IMG/VR virus record: IMGVR_UViG_3300043409_000928
Coordinates: 62,001 to 126,000 of that record
Length of the DNA: 64,000 bases
Direction: 5' to 3' (one strand)
Source: a virus
Below the pieces are notes generated by a model. The model searched no databases and was not told the origin of the DNA. It worked only from the letters and a program-made list of their open reading frames with translations. Positions 2,449 to 59,757 of the stretch are shown piece after piece. Position 1 is the first letter of the stretch. Every line of letters begins with the position of its first letter. A program made the position numbers and the translations under genes.

Positions 2449-3249
2449 TTACACTCTTATTAGAACTTTGTCAAGGGTGCCTGCGTTCGATTGGCTGTCG
2501 AGTCTTGCCACTCGTAACCAACGCACACCAGCATAATAGTTGTATGGATCTATACCAGTGAAACCAGCTAGGTCTAATTTAGCGGTGGTATAATCCTGTG
2601 GCTTCAGATCTGCCCATAATGTAGATCCAACTACCACATCGTCCAAGGTACCTTGTATAATTATACGACCAGTATAATTTGAAGCATAAATTGCCATCGA
2701 AAACAAACTGGTATCTTTTCTGTAAAACTGTGGCCCGTTGAATGCGCTAGATATCAAAATATTATTACCAGTATTGGTCCAAGTTGTTATTTCTGCACTT
2801 GAACGGCTGGTTGGTATAACTTCATCTTTGACTTCAATATCAAAGCCGGCTTGCATTGCTCTATTCCAAGTTAATGCTGTTTCTAAACCATCACCATCTA
2901 CAAAGGTAGCACCTAATTTATAAATGCCACTTGGCAATGTCATCAGGTCCCTGGGTTGTACTACTAGACGAGCTTGTCCGTTTTCTGCAACAGTGGGAAT
3001 TGATCGTCTACGGAAAATAGTAGTTCCTGTGTCACGATTCCACATTGTGATTGTTAGCTCTCTACGAAGCAAACTAACTGGTCTACGGTCGCTTCCAGTT
3101 ACGGTAATGTCTAATATATTGTCTACTCCTTTAAACCAAACAATCCGTTGATCGGTATAACCGGGTGCATGTCTTGTTGTGCTTGGACCCGTGCCTGCAC
3201 CGGCGTAGTTTAGGGTAGCTGAAGGGATAGATGAGTTAAGTGTCGCCAT
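2449..3249 (-). CDS. Putative virion structural protein, unknown
   Basis: A 266-residue protein with many beta-strand-like segments. Its beginning (MATLNSSIPSATLNYAG) looks like a virion protein. It has no catalytic motif and I do not recognise the family. The frame is open further upstream, but I chose the ATG at 3249 because a late-type octamer GCTAAATA sits just upstream (3255-3262) with exactly 5 nt between it and the ATG. A longer protein would read back through that promoter and antisense to the divergent gene at 3281. The late promoter supports a structural role. Its position in front of primase and helicase is unusual. Confidence 0.6.
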   Translation of the reverse strand: MATLNSSIPSATLNYAGAGTGPSTTRHAPGYTDQRIVWFKGVDNILDITVTGSDRRPVSLLRRELTITMWNRDTGTTIFRRRSIPTVAENGQARLVVQPRDLMTLPSGIYKLGATFVDGDGLETALTWNRAMQAGFDIEVKDEVIPTSRSSAEITTWTNTGNNILISSAFNGPQFYRKDTSLFSMAIYASNYTGRIIIQGTLDDVVVGSTLWADLKPQDYTTAKLDLAGFTGIDPYNYYAGVRWLRVARLDSQSNAGTLDKVLIRV

Positions 3250-3673: not shown

Positions 3674-4530
3674 TTTAAGTTTAAGTAGTCACTGGTACTA
3701 TTGTTATCAACCCACAGGTGCTGTGTATCTTTGTATTTTGCAATACTTCTATCTAACAGATCGACATATTGATTTACCTGGTGATTAGTAATTAATTTAC
3801 CTCTCCAAATAAACAATACTTTCATCCCTTTGGCACTCATGAGACTTCTGTGTTTGGTTCTTAAGTTATTCCAAGCAAATGAATTTGTTTCAGCAAGTTG
3901 TGGTATAGCAATGTACTTGTTTGTGTGTTGCTTAATTGGATCTGTTAACAAGTAAAGAGTTTCGCTGGCATTGTTGTCAAATAATTTAACTCGCATTGAC
4001 AATGGTGCATCAATTAGACTAGTACGGTCGCGATGTGGTATTATATCAGCGGCACTGGACCACATGTTCCATGCAAAATCTTTATCACCTACCCAAGGCA
4101 TGTAGTCGTGTATTTGCTCAAAAATTTCAGGGAATTCGGTGTAGGTTTTCTCCAATGCATTTAAAGACCAAATTGGATTCCATCCTGGCGTTACGCTGTC
4201 TATGCTCCTATAAGTTCGATCTGTTTCCGCAACTGTGGCGCTGGCAAAATCAGCCTGAGCCTTGCTTGCATGTTGTGCATTGTTATTAAAATAAAGAATA
4301 AATTTTTCAATGTCATTGATTTTAATACTAGGAATATTGTATGGAACAAACAAGTACTTGCCATATGTTTGTTCAAGCTTGGAGTGAAGGCCAATGACTT
4401 CGGGTAGTAAGCTCAACTCGTGTTTACGAAGCTTGGTTAAATTTTCCTTGGTCTCGGTTACAGCGCCACCTACTTTACGTTCTACGTTTTGTTCGGTGTA
4501 CACTGTTTGATTATCATTGCTCCTGATCAT
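3670..4530 (-). CDS. Putative 2-oxoglutarate/Fe(II) oxygenase-like protein (Asp/Asn hydroxylase type)
   Basis: About 286 residues. A central IIPHRDRTS segment followed by MRVKLFDN and, later, NSFAWNNLRTKHRS resembles the HxD...H metal triad with a downstream arginine of aspartyl/asparaginyl beta-hydroxylase-like 2OG oxygenases, which are common in T4-like aquatic phages. I infer this from motif layout only. The ATG at 4530 is used here. A TTG at 4539 in the same frame overlaps the upstream stop and is an alternative start. The gene ends in a TTAA stop shared with the opposing gene at 3281-3673. Confidence 0.5.
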   Translation of the reverse strand: MIRSNDNQTVYTEQNVERKVGGAVTETKENLTKLRKHELSLLPEVIGLHSKLEQTYGKYLFVPYNIPSIKINDIEKFILYFNNNAQHASKAQADFASATVAETDRTYRSIDSVTPGWNPIWSLNALEKTYTEFPEIFEQIHDYMPWVGDKDFAWNMWSSAADIIPHRDRTSLIDAPLSMRVKLFDNNASETLYLLTDPIKQHTNKYIAIPQLAETNSFAWNNLRTKHRSLMSAKGMKVLFIWRGKLITNHQVNQYVDLLDRSIAKYKDTQHLWVDNNSTSDYLNLN

Positions 4531-54946: not shown

Positions 54947-57892
54947 TTAACTTAGTCTTACCGGAGCATCGCTGGTGGATGGTCTTGTATTACCTCTAAT
55001 TGCGGCCATATCGTTTTGTATTGAACTAACCATTGACATTAATTGGCCAACTGTTTCTTGGGTAAATGTAGGACTATCTTTTGGTCCAGTTTGTACGTCC
55101 TGATTTGCAACAATATTGCCTGCTACATTACTGTCTACACTTGGGGTATTAATACTTGCATACTGTCTCTCAGTAATGGTTCCTGCAATTTGTCCATTTG
55201 TAGAATTTGGATTTGATATTGTAGCAGTTGGTGTTGGCTGTGTAACAATTGAAGCTGTCTGTGTGGCATTTGAAGCTGTCTGAGTGGCAGTTGGGGGTGG
55301 CTGTGTAGCATTCGAAGCTGTTTGTGTAGCAGTTGATGATGCCACAGGGTTTAAATCTTCGTTACCACTTGGCTCAGAATTGTCTGCAACAGCGTTATCT
55401 TTACTAAGACCCATGGCCTTGCCTATCCATGAATCACTTAGCCAACCAAACAAACTAGTAAATGGTTTTGTGATTACTTTCCATATTGCACTGGCACCTG
55501 ATTTTAATATGCTGGTTAAACCGTCAAATGCACCAGTAAAAAGTCCAGTCACTGAATTCCAAATTGCACTGGCACCTGATTTTAATATGCTGGTTAAACC
55601 GCTAAATGCACTACTGAAAACTCCAGTTACTGCATTCCATATCGCACTTGCACCATTGGCAAACCATCCTACTAGATCTTTAAATCCGTCCCATAACTTA
55701 CCAGAAATTTCAACAATTTCATCCCAGAAATAAATGATACCAGCACCCACTGCAACCACTGCCGCAATAATTCCCCATACTGGTGCTGTTATACCAGCCA
55801 GGAGACCACCAATTGCTGTGGCAATACCACCTAGGATTGATCCAAGGCCAGCCATCATACCGCCTAGCATAGGCACTAATTTAGCAATCCAAGGTCCTAA
55901 TTTCCCAAACCAACCAGCAACAGGTCCTATGAATTTTCCAAGCTTGCCAAAACTGCCCACTACCGATCCCCATGCAGATGTTGCCATTGCAATCAGGGCT
56001 GGTATAACAGTTGATAATATTGTCCAGGCCATAACAGCAAGATTTTTTATCATTGCTCCTGCACTAGAAAGTAAGGCCATACTAAATTTGCCCATGGATA
56101 ACAGCATTCCAGTAAACCCACCAGCACTTCGGTATGCTGCCATTGTTCCTGCTAATAGGCTTCCAACAAATTTACCCATTGAAGCGGCCATTCCAACTAG
56201 CCCACCTGCATTTTTCCACATGGCCACAGAGCCTGCTAATATGCTTTTACCAAAGTCCAGTAGTGCTGGTATAATCATTTTAACAGAACCAGCACCACCT
56301 GACATAAATGCACCTACACCACCGGCCGCCAACACAGCCGGTAATATTCCAACTAGGCCTATAATGCCAGCAGTCAATCCAACAAGAACATTACGCAAAC
56401 TTCTCATTGTGTCTGCTAGGTTATCCATTGATTGAATGTTCTTGGCTTCAGAAGTTTTAAACATACCTTCTAATTCTTTTTTTGCACTTGCATCACCTGC
56501 CGCTGCCTTGGCCTGCAGGTCTAACTTTTTAGCCAATACACCAGCCGCAATACCTGCATCAAATAAACCTTCAGTGCCTTTTGCTCCAAGATTTGATCTA
56601 CTGTTTGAAATTGCTTCAAGATTGCCTCGCTGTCCTTGCATGCCTTTTGCCAAGCTTGCCGCATCTACTACACCACCATTTGCTTGCTTGGCACTGGTAA
56701 CTGCTCCTGTTACTGCTTGAAAGTTTGCCATTGCTTCAGGACTGGCATAAGTTGCTGCCGCACCATTATCGCCTTTGGCAATTAACAATGCCATTCTGTT
56801 TAAATCTTCTTCGTTATTGCTTACACCTGCCGCGGCCAGTGCTTGTTTAATATCTTCTGCGCCTTTAACTCCTTGGAGTGCGGCCGCTTGTCCACTTGTA
56901 CTCTTTCTAAAGTTTTCAATACTCTTTAGAATTTCTTTTGAGCTGGTACCAAATGCGTTGCTTAATGTTCTGGCACTGTCAACAGTTTCAGCATACTGCT
57001 TGACCATCATCTGTTGTGCTTCTTTTTCACTTTTAGCAGTCAACTGAATAGTTGCACTCAGTGAACCCATAACATTTGCTTGATCTTCTTGTGTCAATCC
57101 CATTGCCGCAGTAGACTTTGCGGCTTTGTTCATTGTCTTTGTTAATTCAGGTCCAAGATTTTTACTAAGCGTTCCGCTGATAACACCACTTCCCATTCTA
57201 AAACCTCTGGCCAGTTCGCTGAGTGTTTCAACTGATTGTTGTGAGTTTTTACCAAATGCTTTAAATCCGCCTTGACTCTGTTCAATAACTTTAATAAAAT
57301 TATCACCAAGGCCACTCATTAGTTTTGCTTGTGTAATGGAACCAATTTTAAATGCTCCAAGATCAGCCATGCCACCAAGTTGTCTAGCGTCACTGGCAAA
57401 CTCATTCATCATAGTAAGCATAAAACTTACACCACCAGCAAATCCGCCTAAGGCTTTTCCTACCACAGAAGTACTGTATTTTAAATTAGAACTTAGTCCT
57501 TTAAATGCTCCTTCAAAAGTTTGGCCACCTCTAAATAGGTCAGTGCCAAAGTTTTTAAATTCTTTGCCTACATCTTTCATTGAAAGTGCCACTTTGGCAT
57601 GTGCGTCTTCTTCTTTCTTTATTGTCTTGATTAATTCTTCGCGCTCGTCATTGTCCTTTTGAGATAATGATCCTGTTTTTTCCAGAACTTTGCTTAAACT
57701 TGCTAATCTAGATTCTAACTCCAAAAATTCCTTTGACTTTGGCGCTGACTTTGATGATGTCTTTGCTCCGGCTACTCCAGAAGTGGATCCTGTGCCTCGA
57801 CCTACGCCATCAGACATGCCGTTCATTTTTAATGTCAAACGCTCAAGGGCATCTGCCAAATTCCGGCCTGTTTCTTCGGTCAATTCACTCAT
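54947..57892 (-). CDS. Tail tape-measure protein
   Basis: A 981-residue protein that I read as the tape measure (T4 gp29 counterpart). It has a long helical N-terminal half (residues 40-480) and several hydrophobic segments between about 505 and 740 (for example LVGLTAGIIGLVGILPAVL, TAPVWGIIAAVVAVGAGII). Three near-copies of a 'SILKSGASAIW(N/K)' amphipathic repeat follow (about 770-850), then a Thr/Gln/Asn-rich linker with TQTASNAT repeats. Its start is divergent from the tail-chaperone-like genes, which fits. Tape-measure length sets tail length. Confidence 0.75.
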   Translation of the reverse strand: MSELTEETGRNLADALERLTLKMNGMSDGVGRGTGSTSGVAGAKTSSKSAPKSKEFLELESRLASLSKVLEKTGSLSQKDNDEREELIKTIKKEEDAHAKVALSMKDVGKEFKNFGTDLFRGGQTFEGAFKGLSSNLKYSTSVVGKALGGFAGGVSFMLTMMNEFASDARQLGGMADLGAFKIGSITQAKLMSGLGDNFIKVIEQSQGGFKAFGKNSQQSVETLSELARGFRMGSGVISGTLSKNLGPELTKTMNKAAKSTAAMGLTQEDQANVMGSLSATIQLTAKSEKEAQQMMVKQYAETVDSARTLSNAFGTSSKEILKSIENFRKSTSGQAAALQGVKGAEDIKQALAAAGVSNNEEDLNRMALLIAKGDNGAAATYASPEAMANFQAVTGAVTSAKQANGGVVDAASLAKGMQGQRGNLEAISNSRSNLGAKGTEGLFDAGIAAGVLAKKLDLQAKAAAGDASAKKELEGMFKTSEAKNIQSMDNLADTMRSLRNVLVGLTAGIIGLVGILPAVLAAGGVGAFMSGGAGSVKMIIPALLDFGKSILAGSVAMWKNAGGLVGMAASMGKFVGSLLAGTMAAYRSAGGFTGMLLSMGKFSMALLSSAGAMIKNLAVMAWTILSTVIPALIAMATSAWGSVVGSFGKLGKFIGPVAGWFGKLGPWIAKLVPMLGGMMAGLGSILGGIATAIGGLLAGITAPVWGIIAAVVAVGAGIIYFWDEIVEISGKLWDGFKDLVGWFANGASAIWNAVTGVFSSAFSGLTSILKSGASAIWNSVTGLFTGAFDGLTSILKSGASAIWKVITKPFTSLFGWLSDSWIGKAMGLSKDNAVADNSEPSGNEDLNPVASSTATQTASNATQPPPTATQTASNATQTASIVTQPTPTATISNPNSTNGQIAGTITERQYASINTPSVDSNVAGNIVANQDVQTGPKDSPTFTQETVGQLMSMVSSIQNDMAAIRGNTRPSTSDAPVRLS

Positions 57893-57924: not shown

Positions 57925-57965
57925 CATAAATAGATTATGAAAGTAGGCCTACGAACCTATTTACC
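57925..57965. promoter_or_regulatory. Face-to-face late promoters
   Basis: A plus-strand octamer CATAAATA (57925-57932) reads towards the gp26-like gene, and a minus-strand octamer GGTAAATA (57958-57965) reads towards the tape measure. Each lies downstream of the other, so the two transcripts should overlap at their 5' ends. A palindrome GTAGGCCTAC lies between them. Confidence 0.6.
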
Positions 57966-57981: not shown

Positions 57982-58875
57982 ATGGATAACCAAAACCCAC
58001 TAAAAAAGCCGTTTAAGGCAGTGACACCAAACCCGTTGGCAGGGTATTACCGCCGCCCTGGCACATACATTGAACTTCCTTCAAAAGGAAGATTTTATAA
58101 GCTTCCACCCAAGGTTTCAGACACAAACGAATTGGCAATCTATCCAATGACTGCCAAAGATGAATTGGCATTAAAAAATCCAGATTCGTTATTAAACGGT
58201 GAAGCGTTAAAGCAGGTAATACAAAGTGTTTGTCCAGATATCAGGAATGTCAACGAAATTCCTGCCCCGGACATTGATGCTATCTTAGTGGCCATGCGTA
58301 TGGCCAGCTATGGTGATGACATGGAATTGAATGTCACACACGGATGCAATGAAAGCGAAGGGAAGAGCCAACGAATTACCATTGGACTAGGCGGAGTTCT
58401 TTCTACTCTTAAAGAAATTCCAGAAGGTGTAGGCTCAGTTACACTTAGTACCGGTGTACGAGTTGAATTAAGACCGTATACGTTAGAATCACAAAGTAAG
58501 CTTCTTCGCATTCAATTTACAACAATGCGACAGTTGCAGGCCATGGAAGCAAACGAAACTTCAACAGTTGATCAAAAAGCAGAAGTTGCTACCAATGGAT
58601 ACAATGTGTTGGTTGATCTAAGTCAAGAAATACTTGCACAAAGTATCATTTCAGTAACATTACCAGATGAAACTGAAGTAACTAACTATTCACATATTTT
58701 TGAATGGGTTAAGAATTTAGATCGTGCAAGCAATGAACGATTAGATGTAGAGCTAAAAAGATTTGGCGAGTTTGGTATTACTCGAACAGTTAAAATAAAG
58801 TGTGATTACTGCAATGAGGATTACACATCAGATATGTTGTTTGACCCCACAAGTTTTTTCGCCAACGGCTCTTGA
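57982..58875 (+). CDS. 26: gp26-like baseplate hub / tail-assembly chaperone
   Basis: A 297-residue protein similar in outline to the gp26 family of T4-like phages (GTYIELPSKGRFYKLPPKV, then PMTAKDELALKNPDSLLNGEAL), ending with a Cys pair CDYC. The ATG at 57982 has AAGGATTAAG upstream; the frame is open 15 codons earlier, but that would start inside the late promoter region. Near its 3' end a T TTT TTC heptamer (58854-58860) allows -1 frameshifting into the next gene. Location opposite the tape measure and the frameshift both fit a gpG/gpGT-type chaperone role. Confidence 0.75.
   Translation: MDNQNPLKKPFKAVTPNPLAGYYRRPGTYIELPSKGRFYKLPPKVSDTNELAIYPMTAKDELALKNPDSLLNGEALKQVIQSVCPDIRNVNEIPAPDIDAILVAMRMASYGDDMELNVTHGCNESEGKSQRITIGLGGVLSTLKEIPEGVGSVTLSTGVRVELRPYTLESQSKLLRIQFTTMRQLQAMEANETSTVDQKAEVATNGYNVLVDLSQEILAQSIISVTLPDETEVTNYSHIFEWVKNLDRASNERLDVELKRFGEFGITRTVKIKCDYCNEDYTSDMLFDPTSFFANGS
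58854..58860 (+). other. Candidate -1 ribosomal frameshift heptamer T TTT TTC
   Basis: The heptamer is in phase with the gp26-like frame (TTT and TTC are zero-frame codons). After slipping, ribosomes read five codons and then the ATG of the next gene in frame, with no stop between. The zero-frame stop TGA is 12 nt downstream. Confidence 0.6.
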
Positions 58876-59099
58876 TGTTTGGAGTTGATAGAGTAAAGAT
58901 TAGAAACTTTATTGACGCAATCGAATCAGATGCAAGAGCCTTAATCAAAGAAGTATCTACACTAAGCATCTGGGGACCAGTGGATCCAGAATCAATCTGG
59001 AATATGACATATCTTGAAAGACTTGTTCTTAGTGAAGCAATAAAAGAGAAGACAGAAACAATGTATGGGAAAAAAGGTATTGCTCGTAGTCGGATGTAA
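58875..59099 (+). CDS. Small helical protein, second tail-chaperone-like gene (gp51-like position)
   Basis: A 74-residue helical protein (RVKIRNFIDAIESDARALIKEV, in part). The ATG at 58875 overlaps the gp26-like stop (TGATG) and lies in its -1 frame. It could be made alone by re-initiation, fused to gp26 by -1 frameshifting, or both. In T4 the small gp51 follows the hub genes. A terminator-like stem follows at 59116. Confidence 0.6.
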   Translation: MFGVDRVKIRNFIDAIESDARALIKEVSTLSIWGPVDPESIWNMTYLERLVLSEAIKEKTETMYGKKGIARSRM

Positions 59100-59757
59100 C
59101 TTGTTATATCTTGGTAGAGCGAATACTTCGCTCTTGAATTTCGTATCGCTTCGCTCTACTCATTCATCTTGTATTATATAGAGTAGTTAAAGTAATTATA
59201 GTGGATTATAGTGAATCACATTTGATAACATTTTGATTACTTGACACTGATGCTTCAGTCACACTTAGCCCTGTTAAGGACTAAGAGAAAACTTGACACC
59301 GAAGTTCAAGCCACATTCAACTAAAGAAACTTGTTAAAGTAAGGGCGGTCACGCTGTACCCTTTTACACTCATCTTATATGACGCTACCGTATTGACCTA
59401 GTTGAAATCGTCGATACAGCATGTAGGTTGTAATAGTTCACCAGAGCCTACTCATTTTAGCTTTCGTATACTAATCCCAGTTCTTTTCAAGCAATTGAAC
59501 TTCGTCCTGTGAAGGATAGTGGGCGTTAGTCTCTGCTACTGCACAGAATTTCCTTCCCCAGCGCAACCCTAGTGCCTGGTTTTATGGGTGTCTAATTATA
59601 TCGGTGACACTGACCTATCAGTAGTGATCTTGTCGTTGTGAGTTTGCTAATTGAATTTGCGAAATCGCTGTGAGTGTCTACATTGCGTAGTAAATTAGCC
59701 AGGATGAGTTATTGTACACTTTAATTATCAAATGAGCCAGGTGAGTTATAGCCGTTG
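59100..59757. other. 658-bp non-coding region with repeated hairpins
   Basis: No coding frame of note is found between the converging genes. It starts with the 59116-59134 terminator-like stem. It then holds short perfect stems: two share the core ACTGA-N4-TCAGT (59246-59259 and 59608-59621), each preceded by TGAC. Others are CTTAG/CTAAG with an inner CCT/AGG (59264-59285), AGTTC/GAACT (59479-59501) and GAAGGA/TCCTTC (59511-59557). Repeated phrases include ACTTGACAC (two copies) and AGCCAGG(A)TGAGTTAT (two copies near 59697 and 59735). I see no tRNA cloverleaf or intron core. It may encode a structured RNA or a replication origin. Confidence 0.6.
59115..59158 (+). terminator. Terminator-like stem with two alternative partners
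   Basis: AGAGCGAA (59116-59123) pairs with TTCGCTCT at 59127-59134 across a 3-nt loop, or with TTCGCTCTA at 59150-59158. The first form is followed by a weak T-rich tract. It probably ends the gp26-like transcript. Confidence 0.6.

Follow-up and report, generated by a model that had tools for sequence, protein, structure and literature searches.

Tail-assembly chaperones (TACs) made by frameshifting are already known as a class. The -1 frameshift that yields gpG and gpGT of phage lambda was reportedly described by Levin in 1993, and Vladimirov, Gautam and Davidson are said to have treated the TACs of T4-like phages, apparently with poly-T slip sites, in Virology 566:9-15 in 2022. The lambda gpG/gpGT -1 frameshift is reviewed in PMC5009743. 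According to PMC12846349, which cites Vladimirov et al. 2022, poly-T slip sequences are known in the TAC-N genes of T4-like phages, and the same paper presents the Vandenendeviridae/Andersonviridae TAC locus, as in phage Adele, with an invariant GTTTTT. PMC10885494, again citing Vladimirov et al. 2022, has some T4-like phages carrying short and fused long TAC genes and using no frameshifting, and gp181/gp182 of phage G are given as tail chaperones in PMC8570332. For the group of Rak2, PA5oct and Atu_ph07, no description of a TAC frameshift appears in the open papers, represented mostly by their titles, abstracts and word counts (phAPEC6 excepted), and the slip site of these jumbo phages, together with the RNA element described below, is apparently unreported. 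The locus presented here very probably encodes, by way of a -1 ribosomal frameshift, the two tail-assembly chaperones of a jumbo phage belonging to the T4 superfamily.

Organization of the locus

The 64-kb stretch of DNA analysed here, referred to as the window, comes from a virus record of 285,304 bases. Table 1 collects the features of the locus.

Table 1. Features of the putative tail-assembly chaperone locus, in window coordinates.
Feature	Position	Strand	Evidence or remark
Tape-measure protein gene, 981 aa, divergent neighbour	54947..57892	-	phrog_991 tail length tape measure, E=1.3e-14
TAC-N gene, T4 gp26-like, 297 aa	57982..58875	+	PF12322 and phrog_150; stop TGA 58873-58875
Slippery heptamer T TTT TTC	58854..58860	+	X XXY YYZ phase, zero frame
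TAC-C, -1 extension, 79 aa (RQRLLMFGVD...SRM)	58860..59099	+	fusion alignment with gp51; dN/dS
6-nt spacer, heptamer to stem	58861..58866	+	equal across window clade, L062-L080, Atu_ph07 and Phosso
Long-range stem, 5' arm GGCTCTTG	58867..58874	+	covariation; fold z = -2.9
Inner stem-loop (58884-58894 with 58906-58916), inside the long-range stem	58884..58916	+	covariation
Long-range stem, 3' arm CAAGAGCC	58933..58940	+	covariation; fold z = -2.9
Terminator-like inverted repeat GTAGAGCGAA...TTCGCTCTAC	59114..59159	+	shortly 3' of TAC-C stop; presumed function

The T4-type gp26 identity proposed for TAC-N in the first-pass annotation, a reading made from the sequence alone, is borne out by matches to PF12322 T4_baseplate (E=3.6e-13, above the curated cut-off) and to phrog_150, the T4 gp26 family (E=3.8e-18). 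Its closest named relatives in jumbo phages are those of Atu_ph07 (35%), PA5oct (33%) and 121Q (~27%). The AlphaFold model of TAC-N is confident (pLDDT 84.7) and matches T4-like baseplate hub proteins in a viral fold library; PDB searches by sequence and fold with TAC-N, and by sequence with TAC-C, returned no useful match, and no Pfam TAC family was matched. The ORF can be extended upstream to an ATG at 57937, but ATG 57982 is the likely start, since the alignment of relatives begins there and AAGGA lies upstream of it. A T4-type late promoter, CATAAATA at 57925-57932, was considered and rejected, such matches occurring at chance level in the window.

The divergent neighbour had also been called correctly as a tape measure, as its phrog_991 match attests (Table 1). 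PA5oct, Phosso, SCTP-2 and 121Q likewise have a gp26-like gene adjacent to, and divergent from, the tape-measure gene, which in these four phages was judged by position and gene size. The PA5oct record carries an ESI-MS/MS note on the portal and a large structural protein and none on the gp26-like protein, a weak sign as to whether that protein is missing from the finished virion. Homology and position together suggest that TAC-N and its frameshifted form, TAC-NC, would serve as tail chaperones.

The 3' end of the gp26-like ORF reads ACA AGT TTT TTC GCC AAC GGC TCT TGA. Re-reading the sequence confirmed that the heptamer stands in the phase of this frame, with 12 nt from heptamer to stop, and that the -1 frame, TTT TTT CGC CAA CGG CTC TTG ATG and onward, stays open into the next ORF as far as TAA 59097-59099. 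The predicted frameshift product has 293 + 79 = 372 aa. Between TAC-C and the next gene (59100-59757) lie ~650 bases with no convincing gene or tRNA, in which several short direct and inverted repeats were observed; no tRNAs were found anywhere in the window.

Conservation of the slip site

Taken by itself, the heptamer in the window sequence is only suggestive. In the long ORFs of the window, X XXY YYZ heptamers stand in phase 64 times, and wherever genes overlap by 1 nt as TGATG the second is bound to lie in the -1 phase, so that a heptamer seen in a single sequence is weak evidence. T TTT TTY encodes just one of the 14 Phe-Phe pairs in these ORFs, namely that of the TAC-N site. Phe-Phe is written with TTC first (TTC-TTY) in 11 of the 14 pairs, although TTC is the scarcer codon by a factor of 3.5, which suggests that the long ORFs avoid slippery TTT TTT runs.

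The comparative data, by the measure of sequence conservation, are compelling. Conservation of the heptamer and of the -1 phase among relatives was the test set by the first-pass annotation, and on running it we found both to be kept in 54 of 54 jumbo-phage loci (near-duplicates removed), in eight of eight named jumbo phages (Atu_ph07, PA5oct, Phosso, SCTP-2, 121Q, XacN1, RAS14 and Serratia BF, with TAC-N identities of ~25-35%) and in 80 of 80 cyanophage-type loci. A phased heptamer, T6C or T7, likewise occurs in all of the ~80 IMG/VR relatives, whose identities reach as low as 35%; in these counts the window-clade and cyanophage loci represent related contigs, not independent events. The heptamer is also found in cyanophage S-CAM8, Ochrobactrum OC, Stenotrophomonas YB07, Aeromonas 65, Vibrio ValKK3 and P-HM1. 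With XacN1 as the query, no relatives were found in IMG/VR.

Variants of the site are informative. Members of the L052-L060 clade have T TTT TTT in place of T TTT TTC, within a run of eight T. Rhizobium RL38J1 (L211 near 1893) has T TTT TTG, which encodes Phe-Leu in the 0 frame and still Phe-Phe in the -1 frame; judged by sequence, it is here the slip that is conserved rather than the 0-frame residues. Codon usage around the site is similarly constrained. When 39 non-redundant TAC-N genes are aligned, a conserved residue with degenerate codons is found in 109 columns; only seven of these use a single codon throughout, and five of the seven belong to the final eight codons (ACA, AGT, TTT, GGC, TCT). 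Across 34 TAC-N sequences only nine columns are invariant, and the Phe-Phe pair accounts for two of them.

A few exceptions were found. The -1 ORF of L068 (around 3849-3890) has a stop ten codons past the 0-frame stop, with the downstream domain intact, and may represent sequencing error or decay. Cyanophage S-SCSM1 (L106 around 3187-3215) keeps T TTT TTC but has ~11 extra bases after the stop, which shift its gp51-like domain into the +1/-2 frame, a placement that none of its 80 relatives shows; an assembly error, a -2 shift or a separate start are possible explanations. Finally, the Ackermannviridae-like phages Kevin, Cygsa01, Vibrio D507, K444 and Marshall (L108, L109, L206, L207 and L209) have NTT TTY, not T TTT TTC, while their TAC-C domain is still in the -1 frame, with TAATG in some; here the heptamer may have been replaced by a weaker slip site or by reinitiation.

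The -1 domain as part of a predicted fusion protein

The -1 frame had been described as running into a 74-residue gene. Its continuity stands, but its status as a gene does not: the region is better regarded as the domain at the C-terminal end of a fusion, most relatives having no ATG. Downstream of the 0-frame stop, the -1 frame is under purifying selection (median dN/dS 0.15, maximum 0.26, 62 pairs). The 74-aa ORF has no match in Pfam or PHROG and none by tblastn in named phages, and the identity of TAC-C comes from profile comparison with gp51. In hhalign, in-silico fusions match the gp51 family over 238 columns, nearly the whole length (probability 97.6, E 3e-12), their -1 part coming to lie on the gp51 C-terminus, and the -1 domain alone also matches there (probability 87, E 4e-6). 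The AlphaFold model of TAC-C is helical (pLDDT 86.8) and, beyond close kin, finds only weak matches in the viral fold library. The 285-kb record has one copy of PF12322, as do eleven further single-gene records, the SCTP-2 copy being missed by the Pfam model and found by tblastn; T4 and RB43 have two copies. Because the fusion aligns with gp51 over nearly its full length, and because one PF12322 gene stands here against two in T4 and RB43, the predicted TAC-NC is the counterpart of gp51, and gp51 its hard-wired form.

Termination-reinitiation would account for the downstream domain differently, with TGATG coupling translation and a separate 74-aa protein beginning at ATG 58875 or TTG 58872. 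Stop and ATG do overlap in the window, 121Q, Serratia BF, YB07, K444 and ValKK3 are annotated with a separate downstream ORF, and an internal ATG is usual in cyanophages. Nevertheless, we consider this explanation improbable. Within the first 12 codons of the -1 ORF, 54 non-redundant loci provide an ATG in 17 cases, only a TTG in 28, and none of ATG, GTG or TTG in nine, whereas the heptamer is present in all 54; the TTG, moreover, is fixed by the frozen GGC TCT TGA. No Shine-Dalgarno sequence was seen before the -1 ORF start in these loci, the motif FFRxRL, which spans the slip junction and lies 5' of the start, is conserved from the window to Atu_ph07, and gp51 of T4 is a genuine N+C fusion. 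Since starts are often absent, no Shine-Dalgarno sequence precedes them, and FFRxRL is conserved across the junction, the -1 domain is read as part of a fusion, and a small gene started independently was rejected as the main route; reinitiation may be a minor route beside the frameshift. The earlier proposal that the pair are tail chaperones made by programmed frameshifting thus gains support, both from conservation of heptamer and phase and from the homology of the -1 domain to the gp51 C-terminus.

Public annotation treats this domain unevenly: TAC-C is missing or truncated in Atu_ph07, PA5oct, Aeromonas 65 and Marshall (L097, L098, L205 and L209).

A covarying RNA element downstream of the slip site

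A downstream stem of 8-9 bp starts 6 nt past the heptamer, inside the range of about 5-9 nt expected for a programmed -1 frameshift. This RNA stem (58867-58874/58933-58940) was absent from the first-pass annotation. Among 23 diverse sequences, pairing in the long-range stem is found in 91.8% of cells, against 27-59% with an arm slid, and changes on both sides occur in 22 cells, against 8.0 in shuffles; the inner stem shows both-side changes in seven of 11 pairs, with 79% of cells paired, and all of these covariation figures are to be read as support, not as probabilities, because shuffles do not remove relatedness.

Atu_ph07, Phosso, L194 and XacN1 have a stem arrangement like that of the window in a different sequence, and the stem of PA5oct is comparably long and of shorter range. 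No stem reached significance in SCTP-2, RAS14, Serratia BF or L192, and that of 121Q was marginal. Cyanophage-type loci (L111-L190) have something different, a small hairpin ~10 nt past the heptamer with an ATAT or ACAT loop, of which GGTCC-ATAT-GGACC, GATCC-ATAT-GGATC and GGTTC-ATAT-GAACC are examples, changes in one arm tracking the partner arm. Given the jumbo lineages where the stem is not significant and the other hairpin of the cyanophages, the stimulator appears to be lineage-specific. No Shine-Dalgarno-like stimulator was evident 5' of the slip site.

RNA polymerase can slip on runs of T or A (PMC5009743). Slippage of the polymerase on T6 (or T8) would alter the length of the mRNA and create the fusion at transcription, and the site is indeed a homopolymer, reaching eight T in L052-L060. 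Yet T6 is short for polymerase slippage, RL38J1 has T6G, the motif is held in the X XXY YYZ register, and the covarying stem at its constant 6-nt spacer fits ribosomal pausing; transcriptional slippage is therefore judged very improbable. That there is no recoding at all, Phe-Phe being kept for protein function with the heptamer and downstream ORF incidental, is scarcely credible, for although FF is invariant among nine divergent TAC-N proteins, the third positions of AGT TTT and GGC TCT are frozen, the T TTT TTG variant loses the second Phe, the RNA structure covaries, and the -1 frame is under purifying selection.

Proposed mechanism and evolutionary reading

In the frameshift mechanism, for which we infer the slip, its efficiency, the ratio of products and the chaperone role, most ribosomes would read the gp26-like frame to TGA and release TAC-N of 297 aa. 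A minority would pause at the RNA structure 6 nt past U UUU UUC, whereupon two tRNA-Phe would re-pair one base back and translation would continue in the -1 frame to give TAC-NC of 372 aa, with a C-terminal helical domain that is the likely counterpart of the T4 gp51 C-terminus. If the pair works as gpG/gpGT does in lambda, the tape measure, whose gene is divergent, would be covered by many copies of TAC-N and few of TAC-NC, TAC-N binding the tape measure and the C domain recruiting tail-tube subunits (PMC5009743).

On balance, we lean towards a history in which the -1 frameshift is ancestral in the T4 superfamily, with later duplication and in-frame fusion in the kin of T4, and in which the RNA element of the jumbo phages drives the slip. 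Under such a history, T TTT TTY would have been kept by jumbo phages, cyanophages, Menderavirus and some Straboviridae (Aeromonas 65, ValKK3), and Pootjesviridae would keep the site as T TTT TTG, while in T4 and its closest kin gp26 and gp51 would replace the frameshift. The jumbo element would then be a previously undescribed bipartite structure, an 8-14 bp stem around a 50-60 nt loop with a further stem inside it, always 6 nt from the heptamer and embedded in the two overlapping reading frames.

Several uses follow. The tail-gene annotation of many large phages can be corrected where TAC-C is now absent, cut short, or given as an independent hypothetical protein. The two-gene chaperones of T4 become linked to the frameshifting that other tailed phages use, and by this link the step from recoding to gene duplication becomes traceable and testable. 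The covarying RNA stem also offers a compact natural stimulator for reporter work.

Comparison with known systems

Like the TAC locus of Adele, this one is a myovirus TAC with a conserved -1 frame and a poly-T motif, predicted by conservation; the virus families and the motif differ, and the two are likened by motif and frame alone. The gp181/gp182 proteins of phage G are likewise the TAC pair of a jumbo myovirus, with an annotation based on a signature frameshift, but belong to another lineage and are likened by annotation alone. As with lambda gpG/gpGT, one gene would yield chaperones of two lengths through a -1 slip near its 3' end, and the gene lies next to the tape measure. It differs from lambda in its T TTT TTC site and downstream RNA stem, in its orientation, divergent from the tape measure where the lambda gene lies upstream of it, and apparently in protein family, judged by the lack of a Pfam TAC match. 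The likeness to T4 is one of homology, TAC-N being gp26-like by PF12322 and the in-silico fusion aligning with gp51 over 238 columns. The difference lies in how the two proteins are encoded: T4 and RB43 have separate gp26 and gp51 genes without a slip site, whereas here a single gene and a -1 shift would supply both.
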